A DNA stretch of 17,442 nt from NCBI GenBank assembly GCA_900299205.1, contig OMIW01000087.1, positions 1 to 17,442 on the forward strand. Reading direction: 5' to 3'. Shown in pieces: positions 2,842 to 15,919 of the stretch; position 1 is the first letter of the stretch; every line of letters starts with the position of its first letter. The translations under genes were made by a program, and so were the position numbers. This DNA is from Pseudomonadota bacterium (GTDB taxonomy: Bacteria; Bdellovibrionota_C; UBA2361; OMIW01). The notes below the pieces were generated by a model. It was not told the DNA's origin. It searched no databases and worked only from the letters and a program-made list of their open reading frames with translations.

Positions 2842-3089
2842 TTTGCGAGTCGCACCAAAAAGCTCTTATCGCTTTGATGGAAACAAATTTTCCCTTGCAC
2901 CCCAAAGTGCTCTCACTCAAAATCAAGGGGTCAGTTTTCACAAGAGGAAGAAGAGGCATGGTCTGATCAGTGCTTTGGCGAAGCCAAACTCATCATGAGC
3001 AGAAGGAATAATAAAGATGGCGGATGCCATCTCCTCGGCTATTTCTTGCACCTTTGAATCGGTAAGAAGGCGTCGTGAGGGACATTCCC
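2842..3089. other. Intergenic region between kinase and A2M operon
   Basis: No separate gene is convincing here. A small perfect hairpin TTTGGC-GAA-GCCAAA lies at 2974-2988 with no T-run. A good SD sequence (AGAAGGA, 3001-3007) lies 9 nt before an ATG at 3017 that opens a 61-codon ORF out of frame with, and overlapping, the next gene. I could not identify a strong promoter; the operon promoter may lie here or upstream of the kinase. Confidence 0.4.
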
Positions 3090-4613
3090 GTGAGATTGAG
3101 AAGCCCTTTTATATTCGTTCGAATCGCCGATTATTGTCGCTGGTGTGTGCTGTTATTTCTTTTGGTTGCCACGCTGCGGTGCGATGCGAGCCCGTCCTCT
3201 GATCCAGAAATTCTTGCTCGCCGAGGCATCTCCGCTCCTGTTAGTTCTGACGGTGAGCAGCTGGTACCGGAGCTCACCCTTGAGAGCCCGATTGGTGGAT
3301 GGACCTCCTCTCAGATGTTGGATATTCGGGGTCGATGTAGCGATGAAACCGTCAATCCAATCGTCGTTAATATTAACGGTGCTCGGTATCTTGTTTCTCC
3401 CAATACTGACGGTGCTTTCGCCCGCTCATTTCCCGCATCACAGGGCAGGAATACCGTTGAGGTCATCTGTCAGAATACCAAAGGAGTCGCACGACAGATT
3501 CGCTCTCTGTATGTTCAAACTGCCCCTCTTCCCCTCAAGGTAGTCCTTACCAGCGATACGGATGGGGTCTACACAGACTTACATGTTTATGAGCCAAATG
3601 GGGCGCATGTCTATTGGGCCCAAACAAAATCTCCTAGTGGCGGATTGTTTTTTCTCAATACGCAGGGGGACAATTTTGATAAACCGGGATACGGTCCCTA
3701 TTTATACGCTCATCCTGCCCCACCTATCGGCGTGTATCAAATCGACGCGAACTATTGGCCTGGAGGAGCCGTTCAGCACACCCTGGGTAATCTTGAGATT
3801 ATCACTAATGAGGGGACTCCTCAGGAATCTCGAAGGCGAGTGCAACGGCCTCTCGCACGACCAGGTGAGACGGCGACTCTTGCCTTCGTGATCATGCGAG
3901 GAATCGCCCAGAGCCCTGTCATTTATGTGCCCGGACAGGACTCCGAGGCGACTATGCCACCCGAGATCGCCAAGTACCGGCAGGAACATCCTCCATCAAC
4001 AGGAGGGGAGTATGCATCCCTACCTCTCAATGACAAAAGTCACCTAAGGGAAGCTGTCGTCGGAGTAGCTCTCGCTCAAGCAAAAGCGTTTAGCCCCCTC
4101 TGGGAACCATCGCAGCGAGATTGCGCCGGCCTCGTTCGGTTCGCCTTCCGTGAGGCGCTCAAGCCAAGAACGCTTGAACAGCGGGTTAAGCTTGGTTTGC
4201 CATCCCAGCTCACGTTTCCGCCAGTGTCGATTATGGCTCGACTTCACTTCCCCGAATATCCACGATTATGGCGGCAGGGAAACGGCACCCACGGAGCCTT
4301 CGCAGACAGTGAGATCTTGATTGGGCATAATTTTCTCCCGATAGGTCGATCGGTTGAAGAGGCACAGAATGGCGATATCCTGGCTTATGCGAAGTCATTC
4401 ACGACGGATGATCCGTTACATCTCATGATAGTAGCGCGGTCTCCCCACGGGGGACTGATGACGGTGTATCATAATGGAGCTCGCGCCCCGCACGGGGCGG
4501 TACGGGTCGTGCGCATCGGTGAGCTTGATACGGCTGATGATGAAACCTGGAGACCGGTCGCGGCAAATCCTCATTTCTTAGGAGTCTATCGGTGGAAACC
4601 CCTCATGGGCTGA
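3090..4613 (+). CDS. DUF2135-DUF1175 fusion protein (YfaP + YfaT type), A2M operon
   Basis: About 507 residues with an N-terminal hydrophobic export signal (CVLLFLLVATL). Residues about 50-140 look like a beta-sandwich. Residues about 145-270 match the DUF2135 pattern: TDLHVYEPNGAHVYW, a GG...N.QGDNFD stretch, then P.GVYQI...YWPGG. From about 320 onward the protein resembles DUF1175/YfaT, with an NlpC/P60-like layout: QRDCAGLVRFAF with C345 (codon 4122-4124), LHLMIV with H444 (4419-4421) and VYHNG with H461 (4470-4472). A periplasmic cysteine peptidase or amidase on cell-wall peptides is therefore possible; this is inference. In E. coli these domains are separate proteins of the yfa cluster. 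Start: GTG 3090, with GAGGG 8 nt upstream, is preferred over GTG 3075. The last bases overlap the next gene by 22 nt. Confidence 0.75.
   Translation: MRLRSPFIFVRIADYCRWCVLLFLLVATLRCDASPSSDPEILARRGISAPVSSDGEQLVPELTLESPIGGWTSSQMLDIRGRCSDETVNPIVVNINGARYLVSPNTDGAFARSFPASQGRNTVEVICQNTKGVARQIRSLYVQTAPLPLKVVLTSDTDGVYTDLHVYEPNGAHVYWAQTKSPSGGLFFLNTQGDNFDKPGYGPYLYAHPAPPIGVYQIDANYWPGGAVQHTLGNLEIITNEGTPQESRRRVQRPLARPGETATLAFVIMRGIAQSPVIYVPGQDSEATMPPEIAKYRQEHPPSTGGEYASLPLNDKSHLREAVVGVALAQAKAFSPLWEPSQRDCAGLVRFAFREALKPRTLEQRVKLGLPSQLTFPPVSIMARLHFPEYPRLWRQGNGTHGAFADSEILIGHNFLPIGRSVEEAQNGDILAYAKSFTTDDPLHLMIVARSPHGGLMTVYHNGARAPHGAVRVVRIGELDTADDETWRPVAANPHFLGVYRWKPLMG
4580..4594 (+). promoter_or_regulatory. RBS fixing a GTG start
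   Basis: AGGAG at 4580-4584 stands 7 nt before the GTG at 4592, inside the coding end of the preceding gene. It supports the GTG start of the DUF2138-like gene and the 22-nt overlap, which implies translational coupling. Confidence 0.65.
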
Positions 4614-6304
4614 ATCGTGTTGTGGTAGATCGCCGAAAGTGGATATTTTCAGCGATATTGCTGGTCGCCACTGTGTTGGCCGGTTCCGCGATATATGGGG
4701 TTCCTCGACTAACCGATTTCGGTCCCTTAGTGAGTGCTCTTCCTTCATCGATAGTCTACCAACCCGTATCCATAGTGCTCGATGGTAATCCTTGGGACCT
4801 GCCTGGGGCGGAGACTAAAGGTGAGACCGATAAACCGCGAGCTTCTCCTTCCGTTTCCTCTGCGGGAGGGGCGACTGCAACACTCCCCGAGGTGCCGACA
4901 TCAGGCACAGTTGAAACTGAGACCTGGGAGCTGGAAAGTAAATCATCGATCATTTCGGCTGAAATCGTCTCACCACGGCGTGTGATCAGTGCCGGTGAGT
5001 ATCTGTTCTCGGATGCCGGCCCTTTTGGTCCTAAGCTGGCTCCCTTGGTGCGAGCTGAAGTAGGCACATTGATAACCTCATATGAGCGCTCGCTTCTCTC
5101 GTTTTCTCCTGATGGCAGATTGCTGTTGACCGCATTGAAGCTTGGAGCAGTCAGTGGTTCGCAATTAGTCGTTACCTTCAACGATGAAAACGCGTCTGTT
5201 GCCTTCTTGGTGCCTCGTCGTGGAGCCCGATTGTTTAGTGCATTTCTGCGAGCGGTTATCCAATTATCAGCGCGCAAAGCATTCTCGCTCAGGAATGGTT
5301 CGGTGATTATAGAGGCGCGCATCGGACGAAGCACCGTTGGAATAGCGGAGACCGAGCAGTGGTATGTGATAGGCTCAACACCTCGCTCGGTAGCGCAGGC
5401 GTTGATTGATTCTCCGCCTGGGACTCAAACTCATAAGGTCAAGGGGGATGTCGTTATTTCGATCTGTGGTGAGGGACGACTAGGTGGGGCATTGCTGCGT
5501 ACCTTGACCGGCAGTGAACGATATCAGGTAGCCGTTGGAGTGGACCTGCGGATTCCATCACAGCCGAAGCTCACAGCTCTCCTTCCACCTGCCCGCATTT
5601 TTTCCGCGCTCTCTCGCCCTGTTCCCATTTCCCTCTTGCGATCAATTCCACACGACGTTGGAGTTGGGATTATTTCCTCCATTCCGATGCCTCTGAGTGC
5701 GGTAAGTGCTCAGTGGGTTAGTTTGGCCCGTGGTGAATCGTCGCTCTTGGAGCTACCTGCGGCCGATGGCGTAGGGCTTGTCTGGGATATTAATGCGGAC
5801 GACTCGGTTGCGGCAATTACGGTTGCTGTTCCTTCTGAACGCCCGGATGGAGTCGAAGAGACGTTCTGGCGGAAGGACCTTCCGCGAGGAAGTTGTGGTG
5901 CAAATTCTGTTCAAATTTATGCGACGACTACCTCCCTGTACCAGAGCATTCGAGAGTCGTGCGATGGTGCGTCTTTATCACTCGCATCTTCCCTTGATTT
6001 AACGGCTGCAGAGAATTCATCGCAGCTGGTAATAACTGTTCAGCCGAGTCAGATTCTGGCTGGTATCATTGACCAGGGAACCCCCAAATTTCCGAAAAGT
6101 ATTGGGTGGCAAAGGTCATGGCAGAGGAGAGCAGGTGCAAATCCATCATCAATGGAGGAAGTAAAGGTTCTGGTCAAGGATCTGATACCGTTGATGGAGG
6201 GCGCCCTGAGTAGATTGCCAGCGATTGTATTTTCGGGCAACAAGGGGAGTGATGGCTTCGTATGGTTGACATCGCGCATGAAGAGTCCGAAGCGGAGTGG
6301 ATGA
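4592..6304 (+). CDS. DUF2138-like membrane-anchored periplasmic protein (YfaA type)
   Basis: A 570-residue protein with one N-terminal transmembrane segment (about residues 18-37) after a short basic cytosolic start, so the bulk should be periplasmic. Residues about 70-115 are a low-complexity Pro/Ser/Thr/Gly linker. The rest is a mixed alpha/beta protein with stretches such as GSQLVVTFNDENASVAFLV and AETEQWYVIGSTPRSVAQAL, the alternation seen in DUF2138/DUF3352-type proteins. No catalytic motif is visible. The length is close to E. coli YfaA, as I recall it (about 560 residues), and its place between the DUF2135/1175 protein and the A2M matches the yfa/mag operons. The assignment rests more on context, size and topology than on a diagnostic motif. 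Pseudomonas Mag proteins of this operon form an inner-membrane complex with the A2M, and this protein would be the natural anchor. Function unknown. Confidence 0.65.
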   Translation: METPHGLNRVVVDRRKWIFSAILLVATVLAGSAIYGVPRLTDFGPLVSALPSSIVYQPVSIVLDGNPWDLPGAETKGETDKPRASPSVSSAGGATATLPEVPTSGTVETETWELESKSSIISAEIVSPRRVISAGEYLFSDAGPFGPKLAPLVRAEVGTLITSYERSLLSFSPDGRLLLTALKLGAVSGSQLVVTFNDENASVAFLVPRRGARLFSAFLRAVIQLSARKAFSLRNGSVIIEARIGRSTVGIAETEQWYVIGSTPRSVAQALIDSPPGTQTHKVKGDVVISICGEGRLGGALLRTLTGSERYQVAVGVDLRIPSQPKLTALLPPARIFSALSRPVPISLLRSIPHDVGVGIISSIPMPLSAVSAQWVSLARGESSLLELPAADGVGLVWDINADDSVAAITVAVPSERPDGVEETFWRKDLPRGSCGANSVQIYATTTSLYQSIRESCDGASLSLASSLDLTAAENSSQLVITVQPSQILAGIIDQGTPKFPKSIGWQRSWQRRAGANPSSMEEVKVLVKDLIPLMEGALSRLPAIVFSGNKGSDGFVWLTSRMKSPKRSG

Positions 6305-6327
6305 GTATGACTGAAAGGGATGAGCCG

Positions 6328-9300
6328 ATGAGCATGAGCGGCGATACTAATCGATCATCAATCGCTTTCGGTAGAATCGGTCAGCAGTGTGCCATGGGCA
6401 GGGTACCCAATGCCCTAAGGTTTTTTATCCTTTTTGGGATTCTTGCTCTGGCTACGGCCGTAAGGGCTGATAGCCCCTTTTACCTAACGGTTTCTCGCTC
6501 CATGAGCGAAAAAGAGCCGGTGCAGATCCGTCTCGATTCATCTGACAATCAATCTCCATTTCTTCTCCGTATTCTTAAGGCATCAGATGTTGACGCCTAT
6601 CTTGATGGCCAAGTGATGTTGAGTCGAGCATATGAGCCGCCGACAACGATTCCCAGTTTGTTGCGGGTTTTCGTTGATGGAGCGAATAAGGCAGTTTCTC
6701 CCCTGACGACTCTGAAGTCAGCGCTGGATAAAGATTTTCGGCGAGCACTTCACGATAGCGTTTCTCCACCTTTGCGCCGCTTCTCATCGGAACCGTTCGT
6801 GGGACCACCATCGATCAGGTATGACCCCCCTAAAGGTTTTTCTATTATTCGACAAACGTACCTTGATTTGTCGACTAGCGGCAAAAAAGCGGATGATGCT
6901 TGGTGGTGGTTTGGCGAAACCCCGTGGGCGATGCCAGAGCAGGCTGGTTATCGAACAAGAGTCATATACATAGATCCCCTGCCACCGGGGCTTTACACTG
7001 TTCAGGGAATTCAAGGAGATAATGAAGCTCAGGCGTTACTGCAAGTTAGTGCGTTATCGGTACAGGTAAAACAGTCAAGTAAGGATCTGCTCATTCGTAT
7101 AATGAACAGAGAAGGGCACCCAGTTTCGGGCGTGACGGCTCGAATTCGCGGGCGGTCTGGATCATGGGAATCGATATCAGGAGTCTCGAATCAGGACGGT
7201 GAGCTGACGGTGACCCGTTCAGAGCCCTTCGATGGACGGCTCGTTGTTCAGGTACATTCAGGATTGTATGGGGATGCTCTGGTAACAACTGATTTCCTCG
7301 CGTCGAGTCACGAGGTTCAGGATGCATTTATCTTTACAGATCGCCCAATTATCAAGCCCGGTGAAGAAGTATTCTTTGGGGGGATTGTCAGAAACTTTCG
7401 CGATGGTCGGCTGGAGGCAGGGACAACTGGAAGCGCGGGGTCGATGACCCTAAAAAACGGAGACTCGACCATTGGTCCTTTGCCAATAACGGTTTCGCCT
7501 GAGGGTAGCTTCAGTGGCATGGTTCCTCTGCCATCAGATGCGATACCGGGGCTGTATCGAGTTACCGCGACTCTCGATGAAAAGCGATATCAGGGGGAGG
7601 TGCGGATTCAGGAGTATGTGAAGCCTAGCTTTTATCTGACATTTGTTGAAAAACCGGCAACATTAATGCCGGGCCAGAATGTTCGATTGGTGTTGTCAGC
7701 GCAACGGTACCGCGGTGGACCTGCTCACCATGTCCGCTATGAGGTTTTTGTTTATAGGAAGCGATTTGAAACGCCTCAATTCGTTGCTGATGCTGGCGGA
7801 GGATTGGTGACGGGGAGCGACTATTACAACGATGTCCGAAGTGGTTCTGCTCTGACTCAGCCACAGCGAGTTTATAGCACCGTCGATAAGCGGATTCAGG
7901 ATGATTCAACCGGGGCAGTGTCATTGAATCCCTGGGCAAGCAGTCCCCTGATGGATGACTTGGGAAAAGCCACCATTGAATTTGTCATTCCTGAGGTACC
8001 TCAGGAGCAAGTGAACGAACAAGGGGGACAGGAGTGGATATATACAATCGTGGTGCGTGCTCAGGATGATGAAGGGGGTAATGCAACTGCATCTGAAAGT
8101 ATATATGTCACCAAAAGTTTGGCATACGCTGCGGCTGGCTTTGCAAAGACCTTCTATGATGAGGGAGATCTTGCGGTTCCATTATCCATCCAGACCTCCA
8201 ATGCTTCCGGCGATTCTGTGGGGCTCGCGAAAGGAGAGGTCCGATGTACCTTGGAGGGAATTGAGGGGAACGAGAATCCCCTACAAACGATACCGTTTGT
8301 GACTGACGACAAAGGTTCAGCGTTAGTATCGATTCCTCTTCACCGAGGTGAGCGAGGAGTGCTGCGAGCTTATCCGAAGGTTACTCAGGTAGAAGACCGG
8401 CCGAATCCATCGCCAATTGAGCCCGACCCAAGTCAGACGATTATCGTTGGTAAAAAAAATGAAAAGATAGTGAAAGAGCCGGTGCTCAATCTGATTCAGT
8501 CGCGTTCGGTATTGTCACCCGGTGAGCACGACACGCTCGTCGCACTCCTTCCTGAGGGTGCGCTTCTTGGTGAACGTCAACGTATGTGGGTATCGGTTGC
8601 AGGACGCAAAATATATGATCGTATGAGCATTCCCCTGAGCGGATCGACACTGAGTATTCCTATTAAAGCAAAGCCGGAGTATGGGACTGCTTTCTATGTC
8701 TCGGTGGCATTGCCGGTCGCGGAAGGACGCTTTGAGGAGCGCACGGTTAGTTATCGGATCGTTCCGAAAGATCAGCTTCTGAGGGTTGAGGTGGCACCTG
8801 AGATTGATGTGGTGGCTCCGTTGCAAGATGCCGCGATTGTCCTCAAGGTGACTGATTCCGAGGGAACGCCGGTGCCTCAGGTCGAAACCTTTACCTCCGT
8901 GGTTGATGAGGCGGTGTACGCCGTTCAGCCTGAGTTCCGACCAACGCTTCTTTCATTCTTTCTCCCCATCGATCGACTCAACGTGAGTTCATTCCTATCC
9001 GATGAACTTCAGGGATATGGGTATGCAGACCGCTTCTTTCGAGCGAACTATCGACTCCATGCATTGAAGGTTCAAAATCAGCCCAAGGATAGGTTGATGC
9101 GGGATACCGCTGGCTTCTTTCCTCATCGCATCACGGATGCAAACGGTGAGGTGCGGATTGTGGTTCCCATGCCATCAAATGTAACGAAGTGGCGGGTTTC
9201 CTCGTTGGCAATCGATCGGTCTGGGAGATTGGGCGAGGGGCGGGGCTACTTCTCCACCAAGAGCGATATCTCCGTAGAGGCTCGGGTCCCTTCGTTTCTT

Positions 9301-11316
9301 CGACAGGGAGATTCGGTGACTGGGAGCGTTGTGGTGGGAAGCCAGGTAGCATCCCAAGAGGTTTCAGGTGAGATAAATATAGCGGTGGAGCGCGGACTTG
9401 GAATTGGTTCGCCAGTGGTTCAGCGACCATTCTCTCTTACCGCCTCCGAGTCGGCGGTTGAACCGCTCAATCTAGTGAGTAGTTCAAATGTCGGAATGGG
9501 GGGAGTACGGGTAGAGATAAAGGGAGCAGCGCCTTCTCTGAAGATTGGTGGAGGACGAGAGTTTGATGTGACCCTTCGCTCTTCTGCAGAAGCGTTCAGT
9601 GAGGCAATTCCTCTCACCTCGGGATTCTGGAAGCTGGAGCGTCCGGAGAGTGTCAGCCGACTAGAGATTATTGGCACCCCTGGATTGGCCGCAGCGGTTA
9701 AGGAGGCCCAGAAATTCCTTCTCAGCTATCCCTATGGCTGCACCGAGCAGCTGTTAGCCTCGACCGTCCCCAATTTCCTAGCGCTTGCGGGGGAAAACTC
9801 ACCAGTAGCGAAGCAAAACCTCGCAACGGGATTGAGGAAACTATTAGCGCATCAGGGCCAGAGCGGAGGCTTTGGTATGTACGCAGGGGACAATCCCTCA
9901 GTTGACCTCACTGCCCTGGTGTATTCGACTCTCATTCCGTTTAAGGATGAAGCATCGCTTACGGGTACCGAAGTTGAGCGGTTGCTGGATGTAATCTTAG
10001 AACGGGGCAAGCAATATTTTCGAGGGATTAAAGAGGAAAACCCCGCAGAGGTATCGGTTGCGCGGGCGCGGGTGTTCGCCAAAATCGGCCCATCAGAGGT
10101 TCCGGGTTCAAATGGAACACTGGGAGAGGACACGTTGAGGAGGTTGTTTGAGGAGGTTGCCCGTAACGATAGTGCGCCGTCAATATCGGCGATAGCCACC
10201 GCATCAGAGCTTCTTCGTCAGTGGGGTGACTATCCTCCTGACGGGGTGTTCCCGCATGGAAATCGGGAAGCGTTCGTTTCACTGGTGAAGAAGCAGTTAC
10301 ACGTCGCCATATCTCAGATTAATTCCGATAGTTCTGGTAAAGGGATCGGGAAGGGTGATCTCCCGTTCTGGTCAGAGGGGAGTGCGCAGACGGCTTCAGT
10401 ATTGAGTGAGCTTTTCGCGTGGGATGAACTCAAGCCTGAGGAGGAGCGAACACTCGCTGAGTATCTCATGAAAGCGTACGATCCTGAGGATGGGTGGGGC
10501 TCCACTCTTGAGACCTCCTCGGTATTGCTCGGTCTGAGGGATTATCTCAGAGTTCGTGAAATTGGATCTAATGAGAGGGAGAAAGCTGATGGACGGGTAT
10601 GTCCGAGCAGTGTCTCGTTGGGTATCGGGTCCGAGACAGTTGCGTGTTTATGCCAAGAGTCGACTGTCCACTGTCTGATCGATAAAGAGAAGCTACGTGT
10701 GTCCCGAGAAGGCCACGTCTTGGTTAAATTGCCCGATTTGCCGAAATCATATCAACTAACTGCTCGTGTAGACCGAGAGGGTAAGCCGGGAGAAACTCCC
10801 CCAGCCGCAGGGGCTCTTCGCGTTGAGCGTACGTTGCTTCGAGTGATTGGCGGAGGCAAAACAGAAGCGGTAACCTCATCGACCAAGCTCCACCGTGGGG
10901 ACACGGTATTAAGTATTGTACGATTCTCCGATCTTCCCGCACCGCGACGACGCTGGCGGGTGAGAGCTGCGAGTAGTCTGTTCGTGGTGAAAGACACGAT
11001 ACCATCGATTGCCATCTCCGTGAATGACGAGCGCGAGGTCCTTGCTGATGCAGGTATTTCTGGTCCTGCGGAGTCAGAGGCATCGAATGATTATTGGGGC
11101 TCGATTCGCGAGACCCATCGGTTCCCGTGGCACATCGAGCGCGTCTTTCAGCTTCCCCGGAGGGAGTTTATTGGGAAGACAAGAACCGTCTACACCGGCT
11201 GGAAAGTTCTGTATTCCGGTAAAGCATCGCTCCCTGCGGCTCGCGTAACGGATATGTATAACGGTGAGCGATATGGGTTGGCCACGGGCGGGGTGCATGA
11301 AGTGGTTGCTGAATAG
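6328..11316 (+). CDS. yfaS: Bacterial alpha-2-macroglobulin, YfaS type, with thioester motif
   Basis: About 1,660 residues, with a signal peptide ending near ATAVRA. The early FYLTVSRSMSEKEPVQIRL block is the typical bacterial A2M N-terminus. A DRPIIKPGEEV motif (about 335-350) marks a macroglobulin domain. VVDEAVYAV (near nt 8900) precedes the A2M domain, with PMPSNVTKWRVSSLAID (about 950-966). The thioester domain carries YPYGCTEQ, with Cys1138 at 9739-9741 and Gln at 9748-9750, then helical repeats with SGGFG and DGWGSTLETS. In this family proteolysis of a bait region exposes the thioester, which covalently traps the protease; here it would act in the periplasm. Four cysteines cluster at about 10597-10680 and could form disulfides. 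Start: ATG 6328 has AAAGGG 8 nt upstream; ATG 6301/6307 (overlapping the previous stop) and ATG 6394 (shortest signal peptide) are alternatives. The 3' end overlaps the next gene. Confidence 0.92.
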   Translation: MSMSGDTNRSSIAFGRIGQQCAMGRVPNALRFFILFGILALATAVRADSPFYLTVSRSMSEKEPVQIRLDSSDNQSPFLLRILKASDVDAYLDGQVMLSRAYEPPTTIPSLLRVFVDGANKAVSPLTTLKSALDKDFRRALHDSVSPPLRRFSSEPFVGPPSIRYDPPKGFSIIRQTYLDLSTSGKKADDAWWWFGETPWAMPEQAGYRTRVIYIDPLPPGLYTVQGIQGDNEAQALLQVSALSVQVKQSSKDLLIRIMNREGHPVSGVTARIRGRSGSWESISGVSNQDGELTVTRSEPFDGRLVVQVHSGLYGDALVTTDFLASSHEVQDAFIFTDRPIIKPGEEVFFGGIVRNFRDGRLEAGTTGSAGSMTLKNGDSTIGPLPITVSPEGSFSGMVPLPSDAIPGLYRVTATLDEKRYQGEVRIQEYVKPSFYLTFVEKPATLMPGQNVRLVLSAQRYRGGPAHHVRYEVFVYRKRFETPQFVADAGGGLVTGSDYYNDVRSGSALTQPQRVYSTVDKRIQDDSTGAVSLNPWASSPLMDDLGKATIEFVIPEVPQEQVNEQGGQEWIYTIVVRAQDDEGGNATASESIYVTKSLAYAAAGFAKTFYDEGDLAVPLSIQTSNASGDSVGLAKGEVRCTLEGIEGNENPLQTIPFVTDDKGSALVSIPLHRGERGVLRAYPKVTQVEDRPNPSPIEPDPSQTIIVGKKNEKIVKEPVLNLIQSRSVLSPGEHDTLVALLPEGALLGERQRMWVSVAGRKIYDRMSIPLSGSTLSIPIKAKPEYGTAFYVSVALPVAEGRFEERTVSYRIVPKDQLLRVEVAPEIDVVAPLQDAAIVLKVTDSEGTPVPQVETFTSVVDEAVYAVQPEFRPTLLSFFLPIDRLNVSSFLSDELQGYGYADRFFRANYRLHALKVQNQPKDRLMRDTAGFFPHRITDANGEVRIVVPMPSNVTKWRVSSLAIDRSGRLGEGRGYFSTKSDISVEARVPSFLRQGDSVTGSVVVGSQVASQEVSGEINIAVERGLGIGSPVVQRPFSLTASESAVEPLNLVSSSNVGMGGVRVEIKGAAPSLKIGGGREFDVTLRSSAEAFSEAIPLTSGFWKLERPESVSRLEIIGTPGLAAAVKEAQKFLLSYPYGCTEQLLASTVPNFLALAGENSPVAKQNLATGLRKLLAHQGQSGGFGMYAGDNPSVDLTALVYSTLIPFKDEASLTGTEVERLLDVILERGKQYFRGIKEENPAEVSVARARVFAKIGPSEVPGSNGTLGEDTLRRLFEEVARNDSAPSISAIATASELLRQWGDYPPDGVFPHGNREAFVSLVKKQLHVAISQINSDSSGKGIGKGDLPFWSEGSAQTASVLSELFAWDELKPEEERTLAEYLMKAYDPEDGWGSTLETSSVLLGLRDYLRVREIGSNEREKADGRVCPSSVSLGIGSETVACLCQESTVHCLIDKEKLRVSREGHVLVKLPDLPKSYQLTARVDREGKPGETPPAAGALRVERTLLRVIGGGKTEAVTSSTKLHRGDTVLSIVRFSDLPAPRRRWRVRAASSLFVVKDTIPSIAISVNDEREVLADAGISGPAESEASNDYWGSIRETHRFPWHIERVFQLPRREFIGKTRTVYTGWKVLYSGKASLPAARVTDMYNGERYGLATGGVHEVVAE
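9739..9750 (+). other. CTEQ thioester motif codons
   Basis: The codons TGC ACC GAG CAG encode Cys-Thr-Glu-Gln, the CxEQ motif whose Cys and Gln side chains form the internal thioester of complement C3 and A2M proteins. It lies in the expected YGCxEQ context at the start of the helical thioester domain. The residues are read directly; formation of the bond is inferred. Confidence 0.9.
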
Positions 11317-13393
11317 AAATACGCTTCGAGAAGTAGCCTCGATATTTGTCATCGCACAAAGTCTGGCGAGTGGGGGTGGACTACAAAGACGGGCGGAATC
11401 GTACGCAGAGCGGTATACCAAAGTGGGGTATACCCTTCCCGAACGAATTGTCGTCACCGAGGCGGTAAACGGTGATGGATCGTTATCTGGACTACATGCA
11501 GGTGGCTGGTCACCGGGAGTCATCGGACTGCGAGCAAATCCAACGGGATTATTTGGTATCGATCAGTATCTTGCCCATGAATTAGCTCATGAGGCGGTAT
11601 TTCGGACCTGTGGAGGAATTCCCGAGTGGAAAAGTGAAGCGCTCGCGATGCTCTTGAGTGGTGAGCTCGCACAGGTCTGGGAGGTGGAGCAATCGGCTCT
11701 TAAGGATCGTGTGCATGATCGCAAGCTCCTGTGGGAGAGCGTCCGGGGTGTAAGGTCTTTCGAACCGGGTGCTGCTCGCGCACTACGTCAGATATTGCGA
11801 GCGTACGCACATCACAAACAACGACCGTGTGAGTTGCCGGAGGCAGCGGCCCAGGCTTTGCGTGGGCCAGTCCGAGATGAAACCCCTCGTTGGGTTGCAC
11901 TGTCTCTTTCGAGTGGTCGCTTGCTCGCCAAAAAGGGAGACATCTTCGATGAGGTCGCACCGGCCTCTCTGCTAAAGCTCCTCTATGTTGCGAGCGATAC
12001 TCGTGCTCTCTCCGTTGAGCAGGTTCAGGGGCTGCTCCGCAGTGATGAGGATCAGATTCGAGGGAGCAGTTCATTCGATCTAGGTCGCTACATGCTGATG
12101 TCAGCGCCTCTCCGAGATCACAGCAGTCTGCGAGAAGTTCCCCCAGCTCCGAGTGTTCTGATGGGTCAGGCAGATGCAGCCTCCTATCCCCTCCAGGGCT
12201 CATTGCAGGCGATTGCCCAAGCTGTTCGCAGTGCCATTCTTTTAAAGGGACGTTCATCTTGGAGCCCTTTGGTTAAGTTTGATGAGGATGAGAAGGCAAC
12301 AATCGGCATGGCCTCACAGAGCGTTCGACAGCTGATTCGAGAGCAGTCGGGCTGGGTAAAAACAGGCACAGCATCTTTGCACGATGGCACGCCCACAGAA
12401 GGAGTAATAGCGGTTGTGTGGCCGGCAACAGATCCGACCGTTCTACTGGTCGCTGCCCGAAACGGTGTGAAGGGAGCCCAGGTCTGGAATGGAGATGAGC
12501 CCACGCTCAATCGGGTCATGAAGCTTCTTGCGCCGTTTTCTCGAGATACGAAGAGTGAGGTTCTTTCGTTGCTTCCCCGAAACAGCTTTTCTATAAAAGC
12601 GCCATTTTCGGATACCTCCTGTGAACGGTTGATCCTCGATGATGGTGGCATTACCTCGACCTGTGGTGCTATTGAGATAGAAACCACCGTCAAGGGAGCC
12701 CTCCGTCGGCGATTCTTCCATGGAGTTCTCTCGTTTCGAGAGGATGCATTGGTTCTTCGGACGGATCCATACACCTACGGAGAGTATGTGGTTGAGGGCG
12801 AGGTAGCCCGGGAAGCTGGAGAACTGCGTGAGGCAGTTCAGATGGTCGGTGGTTGGAATAGTGCAAATGGCAACCACGGTCATCGATGGGGGACCGTGTG
12901 TGATACTTCGCATTGCATGGTTCAGAAGGGAAGCTCATCCCAATTGCTGCCACCAATCTCTCCTGAGCAGCTTGAACGCGTCGAACGCATATTTAGGATG
13001 CTTTCCGAATTTGCTGCGCGGCGAGGAGAGCGATGGTTCGAGTTTTCTTACAGCAAGCCAGCGGAATGGAGTCGAACGGTGCCAGTTATAGATGTTACCG
13101 CACGGATGGGGCTCGAGGGCAGTCTCTCGGTGTATCGTCAGCGAAACAAGGGAGGAGACGTGGCGATCGTGTTCAGCGGTGACGAGGTTACCCATGTAAC
13201 AACCTGCGATACTCTGATGGTAAAGCTCGATCTTCCCTCTTGCCCATCGCGAATCACGCAAGAGGAGGGGCTTGTTGCATTTCAGGGCGACATAGTCGGT
13301 CACGGTCGGGGGCTATCGATATGGGACTGGAATCGTCGTTGCATCGAGTCGCATTGCTCGGTTGAAGAAATTCTCCGGAGTAGCTATGGGTGA
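11297..13393 (+). CDS. DUF2300/YfaQ-like exported protein with HExxH, SxxK/KTGT and SpoIID-like segments
   Basis: About 698 residues starting with a signal-like segment (MKWLLN...ASIFVIAQSLASG). Three motif groups follow. (1) HELAH at 94-98, with PEWKSEALA placing Glu114 16 residues later, a gluzincin-like zinc-peptidase layout. (2) APASLLKLL, with Ser224 and Lys227, and GWVKTGTAS, with Lys355, the SxxK and KTG pair of penicillin-binding proteins and class A/C beta-lactamases; no clear SxN was found between them. (3) From about 495, GEYVVEGEVARE, a REAVQMV stretch and TVCDTSHCMVQKG (Cys535, Cys540), resembling the SpoIID/LytB lytic transglycosylase pattern. E. coli YfaQ is, as I recall, shorter (about 550). 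Position after the A2M gene supports YfaQ/MagE. ATG 11297 overlaps the A2M gene by 20 nt; GTG 11264 and ATG 11273 are alternatives. Likely periplasmic and acting on or binding peptidoglycan; activity is inferred. Confidence 0.7.
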   Translation: MKWLLNRNTLREVASIFVIAQSLASGGGLQRRAESYAERYTKVGYTLPERIVVTEAVNGDGSLSGLHAGGWSPGVIGLRANPTGLFGIDQYLAHELAHEAVFRTCGGIPEWKSEALAMLLSGELAQVWEVEQSALKDRVHDRKLLWESVRGVRSFEPGAARALRQILRAYAHHKQRPCELPEAAAQALRGPVRDETPRWVALSLSSGRLLAKKGDIFDEVAPASLLKLLYVASDTRALSVEQVQGLLRSDEDQIRGSSSFDLGRYMLMSAPLRDHSSLREVPPAPSVLMGQADAASYPLQGSLQAIAQAVRSAILLKGRSSWSPLVKFDEDEKATIGMASQSVRQLIREQSGWVKTGTASLHDGTPTEGVIAVVWPATDPTVLLVAARNGVKGAQVWNGDEPTLNRVMKLLAPFSRDTKSEVLSLLPRNSFSIKAPFSDTSCERLILDDGGITSTCGAIEIETTVKGALRRRFFHGVLSFREDALVLRTDPYTYGEYVVEGEVAREAGELREAVQMVGGWNSANGNHGHRWGTVCDTSHCMVQKGSSSQLLPPISPEQLERVERIFRMLSEFAARRGERWFEFSYSKPAEWSRTVPVIDVTARMGLEGSLSVYRQRNKGGDVAIVFSGDEVTHVTTCDTLMVKLDLPSCPSRITQEEGLVAFQGDIVGHGRGLSIWDWNRRCIESHCSVEEILRSSYG

Positions 13394-13803: not shown

Positions 13804-13873
13804 TGGCCCCGCAAGGCATAGTGGCTTTTGAATGCGGTCGAGAGAGGGAATTTTAGCTAACATTGAGGTTCTT

Positions 13874-15919
13874 ATGGAAACAGTAACAAGCGATTTTGTT
13901 ATTTGGCGTTTCTTTTATCTGGTTTTGATCGGATTGGTAGGGTTTATCGCGTATAGAGGGCGTTTTATTCGTTACATTCCCAATAATCGGGTAGGTGTAG
14001 TAGAAAAGTTTTTTAGCACCCACGGATCGGTTGACGAGGGAATCATTGCTCTCAATGGAGAGGCTGGATATCAGCCGTCGGTGTTAAGAGGTGGATGGCA
14101 TCTTATGAAGCCGTTCATATACCGGATTCATAAGGTACCTTTAGTAACCATTCCGCAAGGCAAGCTTGGGTACGTTTTTGCGCGGGACGGCAAGGCACTA
14201 CTTCCCGAGCAGACCCTTGCGTCTAATGTTGAGGCATCTGACTTTGAAGATGTCGTTGATTTTCTCAGCAAGGGTGGGCAAAAGGGGCCTCAGCGGAAAA
14301 TTCTTCGGGAAGGAACTTACGCAATCAACCTCGCCCAGTTTGTCGTCATTACCCACGATACGCTCTACTATCACGATCTCGATGCGGGTGATGGCGCGCT
14401 GTTTCAGCAGATGGCTGAAGTCATCGCGGACCGCGGCGGTTTTGAGCCGGTCGTAATCAAGGACCGTGATGATAGTATCGGTGTGATAACCGTTCACGAT
14501 GGGCCATCGCTTAGTGAGGGCGAAATAATCGCCCCCATTGTCGGCAACGATGCCGGGGATAGGGATACCTTTCACAATAACTTTCAGGATCCGGAGGCGT
14601 TTCTCCGAGCTAAAGGAAGGAGGGGGCGACAATATCAGGTGCTCGTTGAAGGTACCTACTACATTAATCGATTATTTGCGACAGTTGAAGTCGTTCCGAA
14701 GACGATCGTAGAGGTGGGTCAAGTTGGTGTAGTGGTTTCGTACGTCGGAGCTCTCGGTGCGGATTTGTCGGGACTAGACTATAAGCACGGCGAATTGGTT
14801 CGGCAGGGTTCTCGTGGCGTATGGGAAACGCCGCTACTTCCTGGTAAATACGCTTTCAATACGTACGCTGGTAAAGTTGTAATGGTACCAACGACGAATT
14901 TTATTCTTAAATGGAATCGCTCGGAGACCGGTTCCCATAGGTTTGACGAAAATCTTGCAGAAGTTTCTCTTATCACTAAAGACGCTTATGAGCCGTCACT
15001 GCCATTAAGCGTTGTTGTGCATATTGATTATAAGAAGGCACCTCTGGTAATTCAGAGATTTGGAGACATTAAGCGGCTTGTCGAACAGACACTCGATCCA
15101 ATGGTTTCGGCCTATTTCAAAAACGTAGGTCAGACACGGACGTTGATTCAACTTCTCCAGGATAGGAGCGAAATTCAGCAGACATCATCGATGGAGATGA
15201 AAGCAAAGTTCGCCCACTACAATCTTGAGCTCGAAGAAGTATTAATTGGGACTCCGACATCAGGAGCGACCTCAGGGCAGATAGAGCAGATTCTGAATCA
15301 GCTGCGGGCCCGACAGCTTGCAGAGGAACAGGTGGAAACATATTCCCGTCAGCAGAAAGCATCGGTCAAAGAAAGGGAATTGAGGGAGACCGAGGCAAAG
15401 GCAAGGCAGCAGCAGGCGCTCACCGAATCTGAGATCAGTATCGAGATTCAATCAAATGAGGGAAAGGCCGAGTACCACCGGGCTTTGCAGCAGGCGGCTC
15501 AAATTCGTGCGCTTGCGGAGGCTGAAGCTGAGCGTGCAGCTCGAGTAGGAATTGGGCAGGCCATGGCTATCGAAGAGCAGGTGGCGGCCTATGGGGGTGC
15601 TCAATACCAGGTTCTGCAACAGGTGATAAACCGCTTTTCGGAAGCTATCGAAAAGTCCCGTGTAGATGTGGTTCCTAAGATAGTAATCGGCGGGGCTCAG
15701 GCCGGTAATAGTGAAAACTCGGGGCGCGGATTCTCTGGCGGTGGCGGTGCTAATGTTATCGAGGGGCTGATTGCTCTTTTGCTGTCCGAGAAGGTCGGTC
15801 TCGATATCCTGAACGAGTCTCGACCGCCACGAAATCCTGCCACCGAGGCAATGCGAAAGGCGATATTGACAAATATTGAAGCGGCAAATGAGACCAGTGA
15901 TCTCGAAGTGGGTAAATGA
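13874..15919 (+). CDS. Long SPFH/Band-7 domain (flotillin-like) membrane protein
   Basis: About 681 residues. One N-terminal membrane helix (about 9-27, FFYLVLIGLVGFIAY) leads into PNNRVGVVEKFF, the usual start of SPFH proteins. Before the main SPFH domain are repeated beta-rich modules with recurring phrases: KILREGTYAINLAQF, QVLVEGTYYINRLFA and PLLPGKYAFNTYAG, each followed by valine-rich strands. The SPFH core (about 360-460) includes LPLSVVVHIDYKKAPLVIQRFG and VSAYFKNVGQ. A long Gln/Glu/Ala coiled coil (about 465-570) follows, then a VDVVPKIVIGG segment, a Gly-rich patch and a helical end. Such proteins oligomerise into membrane scaffolds or cages. Start: ATG 13874 with GAGG 5 nt upstream and the membrane helix near the N-terminus; ATG 13832 has a poorer RBS. 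An upstream terminator separates it from the A2M operon. Function is scaffold-like by family only. Confidence 0.85.
   Translation: METVTSDFVIWRFFYLVLIGLVGFIAYRGRFIRYIPNNRVGVVEKFFSTHGSVDEGIIALNGEAGYQPSVLRGGWHLMKPFIYRIHKVPLVTIPQGKLGYVFARDGKALLPEQTLASNVEASDFEDVVDFLSKGGQKGPQRKILREGTYAINLAQFVVITHDTLYYHDLDAGDGALFQQMAEVIADRGGFEPVVIKDRDDSIGVITVHDGPSLSEGEIIAPIVGNDAGDRDTFHNNFQDPEAFLRAKGRRGRQYQVLVEGTYYINRLFATVEVVPKTIVEVGQVGVVVSYVGALGADLSGLDYKHGELVRQGSRGVWETPLLPGKYAFNTYAGKVVMVPTTNFILKWNRSETGSHRFDENLAEVSLITKDAYEPSLPLSVVVHIDYKKAPLVIQRFGDIKRLVEQTLDPMVSAYFKNVGQTRTLIQLLQDRSEIQQTSSMEMKAKFAHYNLELEEVLIGTPTSGATSGQIEQILNQLRARQLAEEQVETYSRQQKASVKERELRETEAKARQQQALTESEISIEIQSNEGKAEYHRALQQAAQIRALAEAEAERAARVGIGQAMAIEEQVAAYGGAQYQVLQQVINRFSEAIEKSRVDVVPKIVIGGAQAGNSENSGRGFSGGGGANVIEGLIALLLSEKVGLDILNESRPPRNPATEAMRKAILTNIEAANETSDLEVGK

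Follow-up and report, generated by a model that had tools for sequence, protein, structure and literature searches.

What does the protein encoded next to an alpha-2-macroglobulin (A2M) gene contribute to its operon? The window analysed here, a whole stretch of 17,442 nucleotides, carries such a gene for a 698-residue protein (Table 1), which a preliminary description read as the union of a zinc peptidase-like module, a PBP/beta-lactamase fold and a lytic-transglycosylase relative. Our analysis supports that reading of its module composition. We consider it probable that this periplasmic, likely membrane-tethered protein of the MagE/YfaQ type is the peptidoglycan-processing partner of a thioester A2M.

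Table 1. Features of the A2M operon in the window
Feature	Coordinates	Strand	Basis
MagE/YfaQ-like gene, 698 aa	11297..13393	+	ORF; ATG overlaps A2M gene end by 20 nt; also follows A2M in related loci
N-terminal hydrophobic helix, probable signal/anchor	11297..11371	+	hydropathy; predicted model
Predicted MA-clan (gluzincin-like) zinc metallopeptidase module, HELAH 94-98 and Glu114	11372..11812	+	invariant H, E, H, E; hhalign; Peptidase_MA_2 in relatives
PBP/serine beta-lactamase-like module, S224xxK227, S249-D-E (SxN position), K355TGT	11873..12547	+	VIA fold; PBP-A 3un7 profile match; hhalign
SpoIID/LytB-like module, predicted lytic transglycosylase, E502, H529 C535 H539 C540, GHG 668-670	12584..13390	+	SpoIID structure profile match; hhalign
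Alpha-2-macroglobulin (A2M), thioester motif GCTEQ at 9736-9750	6262..11316	+	Pfam MG2, A2M, TED
DUF2135 (MagF/YfaP-like) fused to DUF1175 (MagC/YfaT-like, NlpC/P60-type fold)	3075..4613	+	Pfam 1e-8 and 8.6e-49
570-aa protein between DUF1175 and A2M genes	4592..6304	+	ORF in operon

The motifs on which the three-module claim was built are present in the protein: HELAH (11576-11590) followed by a Glu codon at 11636-11638, SLLK (11966-11977) followed by KTGT (12359-12370) 131 residues after Ser224, and a SpoIID/LytB-like end with EYVVEGEVARE (12782-12814) and VCDTSHC (12896-12916). Two details of the last set are revised here. The SpoIID catalytic Glu aligns with E502, within VVEGE, and not with the final Glu of VARE, and the C-terminal SpoIID signature GHGxG, at 13298-13312, is added to the list. 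Every named motif residue is conserved: none of the 15 residues predicted to act in catalysis or metal binding (H94, E95, H98, E114, S224, K227, K355-T358, E502, H529, C535, H539, C540) varies among 15 homologues with 19-30% identity to the window protein, in which only 42 of 698 positions are invariant overall (hypergeometric p = 3e-20, a figure that ignores relatedness and residue type). Within the SpoIID motif Y-x3-V-x3-E, V498 and E502 are invariant across the 15 rows and Y494 is replaced by F in one. In the metallopeptidase module, H, E, H, E, an Ala and a Gly are the sole positions that never vary among 20 sequences of both module orders; its Glu lies 16 residues past the second His in the window protein, within the motif P-x-W-x-x-E-[AG]-x-A. 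The PBP module lacks the SxN motif, reading S249-D-E in the window and SDT in the nearest relatives, while the same position reads SCN in Myxococcota and Acidobacteriota and SCG in YfaQ. Since the Asn is lost in the window, transpeptidation is doubtful there, and we claim the fold alone and not PBP catalysis.

Single-sequence searches with the window protein gave no match in Pfam, NCBIfam, PDB, plasmids or genome contigs, and one relative (G032) was found among 45 genomes of its phylum, so we judged the three folds through relatives. They were reached through the DUF1175 domain encoded nearby, an alignment of which was used as the scan query. Of 513 DUF1175 relatives, we took the best 80 by similarity to the window, so the set is not a census. 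The 80 loci come from Methylococcaceae, delta-type proteobacteria, Myxococcota, Acidobacteriota, Spirochaetota, Pseudomonas, Enterobacteriaceae and Oxalobacteraceae, and profile searches of the open reading frames of related loci found the same kind of protein beside A2M.

Acidobacterial homologues match Pfam Transpeptidase PF00905 (2.3e-47) and SpoIID PF08486 (9.4e-22). They also share the HExxH...E module, which metallopeptidase Pfam families match weakly; the window protein has HExxH and a downstream Glu in common with MA-clan peptidases, and Peptidase_MA_2 reaches E 2e-5 at best in relatives, under Pfam's own curated cut-off. Compared with solved structures, the window-group profile aligns with C. 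difficile SpoIID (5i1t/5txu) in two stretches at 7.4e-5 to 9e-5, Zn ligands included, and with PBP-A (3un7) at E 2.4e-4; the metallopeptidase finds only weak aminopeptidase N matches in the PDB (E about 0.2). Nine module profiles, from the window group, acidobacterial proteins and gammaproteobacterial YfaQ, were compared pairwise by hhalign. Window and acidobacterial modules pair strongly, both for the metallopeptidase (C-terminal in the acidobacterial proteins; 97.2%, E 4e-11) and for the window PBP and SpoIID modules with their PF00905 and PF08486 counterparts (95.8% and 98.1%), and all non-corresponding pairs score 12% or less. Direct links between the window group and YfaQ are weak (PBP 24%, SpoIID 31%, metallopeptidase 1.4%) and pass through the acidobacterial sequences, which relate to YfaQ strongly by SpoIID (96%), moderately by metallopeptidase (58%) and weakly by PBP (18%), the last being nonetheless consistent with the fold. 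Homologue profiles relate the modules to PBP and SpoIID, and corresponding modules link only to each other.

Structure prediction bears out the PBP part of the claim. In a model of the window protein (mean pLDDT 74), residues 193-417 resemble a PBP transpeptidase (VIA Z 14.7, rmsd 3.3 over 199 aa to 5lp4_A), S224 starts a helix (223-233), KTGT lies on a strand (353-360), and HELAH and E114 sit on two helices (88-105 and 110-121), all as the motifs would lead one to expect. VIA and Foldseek lists for the whole protein are dominated by PBP domain matches, and the gluzincin-like part is read from sequence and the SpoIID part from profiles. In the model of a Pseudomonas MagE-type protein (pLDDT 83), residues 17-241 form a class D beta-lactamase-like domain (Z 14.2; BlaR1 sensor domain 13.6). 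Taken mainly on the strength of relatives' profiles, the evidence supports a PBP/serine beta-lactamase superfamily fold for residues 193-417 as modelled, SpoIID/LytB membership of the C-terminal module as a predicted lytic transglycosylase, and a putative gluzincin-like (MA clan) N-terminal module.

All three modules occur in 46 of the 50 informative A2M loci among the best 80 of 513 DUF1175 relatives, the other 30 of the 80 being too short to score for module content; in L020, L027, L078 and L083, A2M is followed by 2.5 kb or more of sequence that lacks the three modules. The three-module gene adjoins A2M in nearly all loci. In Methylomonas methanica it sits about 7 kb upstream of A2M and is read from the other strand (L017:3860-5977), and several other Methylomonas loci have A2M without a three-module gene nearby. 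A second PBP transpeptidase gene is found about 15 kb from the three-module gene in two loci (L066:27-1718, where it matches PF00905 at 5e-41, and L053:416-2137).

The modules come in two orders. Metallopeptidase-PBP-SpoIID is found in the window, in delta-type bacteria, Myxococcota and Methylomonas, and in G032, where the gene is split across two contig ends; PBP-SpoIID-metallopeptidase is found in Acidobacteriota and in YfaQ/MagE of gamma- and betaproteobacteria. Two spirochaetal MAGs (Spirochaetota L072/L080) carry the modules as three consecutive genes after DUF1175, A2M and DUF2135 (in L072 at 10291-11283, 11276-12400 and 12358-13050), and the acidobacterial loci L069 and L073 have the metallopeptidase in a separate reading frame. 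The parts in L069 are divided by a single in-frame stop, and a damaged or misassembled gene is possible there. Nine sampled metallopeptidase-first loci fall on one side of a branch (SH-aLRT 99) in a DUF1175 tree that omits ten further such loci, mostly Myxococcota, dropped for short domains. This is consistent with, and not proof of, a single rearrangement behind the two orders.

The preliminary description had also called the protein a DUF2300 protein. Pfam DUF2300 (PF10062) has no match in it or in its genome, and BLASTP detects no direct similarity to YfaQ or MagE. The assignment holds by position and composition: like E. coli YfaQ and P. aeruginosa MagE (tandem DUF2300), the window protein is encoded by A2M with DUF1175 and DUF2135 partners, has PBP, SpoIID and HExxH modules, and keeps the SpoIID catalytic Glu, SxxK and HExxH. 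The order in YfaQ/MagE is rotated, with the metallopeptidase C-terminal, and YfaQ has KTW in place of KTG and has lost both the Zn site and the GHG motif of SpoIID. The SpoIID module shares more with C. difficile SpoIID, in which E101, C140 and H145 are required for peptidoglycan cleavage in vitro and the zinc site is formed by H134, C140, H145 and C146 (PMC6221140). E101 aligns with E502 and the zinc ligands align with H529, C535, H539 and C540, the spacing from first Cys to second His being one residue shorter in the window protein, and the GHG motif aligns as well; the window protein differs in its fusion to two other modules, its place in an A2M operon and its activity, which is predicted. 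The PBP module resembles class B PBP transpeptidases, PBP-A and class D beta-lactamases in SxxK, KTGT and fold, and differs from them in the replaced Asn and its short length (about 225 residues). Type I bacterial A2Ms are likewise paired with a PBP-type protein, PBP1C, which is a glycosyltransferase-transpeptidase, whereas the window partner adds SpoIID and metallopeptidase modules.

The window protein and its orthologues share an N-terminal hydropathy peak of 1.5-2.2, where the model places helix 7-25 at low confidence, and we infer a periplasmic, probably membrane-tethered location. There, the SpoIID domain would cleave glycan strands, perhaps denuded ones, and the zinc peptidase may cut peptides, whether stems of peptidoglycan or A2M/protease substrates. 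The PBP-like domain may bind or acylate stem peptides of the D-Ala-D-Ala type; it could work as an enzyme where SxN survives, whereas docking or sensing is more likely in YfaQ and the window clade. In concert with A2M and its NlpC/P60-like partner MagC, the protein could remodel or repair a wall under attack by hydrolases, with A2M trapping proteases at the same time. The profile matches, the 15 invariant residues, the alignment of E502 and the zinc ligands with SpoIID residues characterised by mutants, the PBP and class D beta-lactamase/BlaR-like folds, the three-gene spirochaetal form and the recurrence across loci count for this reading. So do the wider cells of an E. coli yfaQ deletion, whose phenotypes resemble those of mepS/mepK mutants (PMC12282094), and the protection that the P. 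aeruginosa mag operon gives against some T6SS effectors that target the wall, demonstrated for magD, not magE (PMC12663445). Against it counts the report that MagE is cytoplasmic and does not bind MagD stably (PMC5764988).

Loss of SxN in the window clade and YfaQ, together with KTW and the missing Zn site and GHG motif in YfaQ, means that some modules may be inactive. The main alternative takes this further: the protein might be a catalytically weakened peptidoglycan-binding scaffold whose modules keep their folds as wall anchors or sensors and place A2M at damaged wall. MagC offers a precedent, since this DUF1175 protein is NlpC/P60-like and called inactive yet peptidoglycan-binding in the account that PMC10318531 gives of Zouhir 2021, and the BlaR1 sensor is among the folds that the YfaQ-type PBP domain resembles. 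We nevertheless regard a scaffold as rather unlikely: a pure scaffold would have no use for the catalytic and zinc residues of SpoIID or for SxxK, KTGT and HExxH...E, all of which stay constant in the window clade and Myxococcota and almost constant in Acidobacteriota. Less probable still is a maturation factor, in which the metallopeptidase or the whole protein would process or chaperone A2M and not act on the wall. Adjacency to A2M would suit it, as would the changed amount and forms of MagD on magE loss (PMC5764988), but it leaves the SpoIID and PBP modules unexplained, and the yfaQ phenotype is of the wall type in E. coli, where yfaS is annotated as a pseudogene in K-12 MG1655. A coincidental occurrence of the motifs in some unrelated protein of unknown function has next to no probability and is refuted by conservation and profile results as well as the PBP fold and gene fission, even though the window protein by itself matches nothing in Pfam, NCBIfam or PDB.

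Peptidoglycan processing beside a thioester A2M thus remains our preferred reading. More tentatively, these loci may belong to a widespread A2M envelope defence with a modular wall toolkit (zinc peptidase, PBP, SpoIID), joined in two orders or left as three genes, in which an attack on the wall is answered jointly by A2M trapping and by wall cutting or repair, with an undescribed zinc peptidase linking the two. Earlier work assigned no enzymatic function to MagE in the Mag complex (PMC5764988) and in 2025 described E. coli YfaQ as bipartite, transpeptidase-like and SpoIID-like (PMC12282094). In the part of the literature that we searched, we found neither the metallopeptidase module nor the reordering or the three-gene form described, and no link to thioester A2Ms beyond the gammaproteobacteria. 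The zinc-peptidase module appears to be new, as do the change of order, the fission and the distribution. Shuffling and splitting of modules beside A2M points to a direct cell-wall role for a poorly understood defence operon. Three conserved predicted active sites in one partner make its mechanism testable by point mutants, and reordered or split versions in other phyla offer single-domain proteins suited to biochemistry.

Other members of the operon add to this picture of the locus. The DUF1175 alignment matches the solved MagC structure 7bk8 (E 1.5e-87), and the window's DUF1175 part keeps DCAGL and HLM motifs of NlpC/P60 type; its fusion to DUF2135, joining MagF and MagC counterparts, also occurs in G032. 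The 570-aa protein has an N-terminal hydrophobic stretch and counterparts in related loci, no Pfam match, and no detectable homology to gammaproteobacterial MagB/YfaA. GCTEQ is retained in the window A2M and most A2Ms of related loci and is absent from enterobacterial ones; that type II A2Ms lack the thioester does not hold for the wider MagC/MagF-type operon family. Downstream of the three-module gene, on the same strand and after a gap of 438 nt, lies a gene for an SPFH/Band 7 protein (13832-15919).
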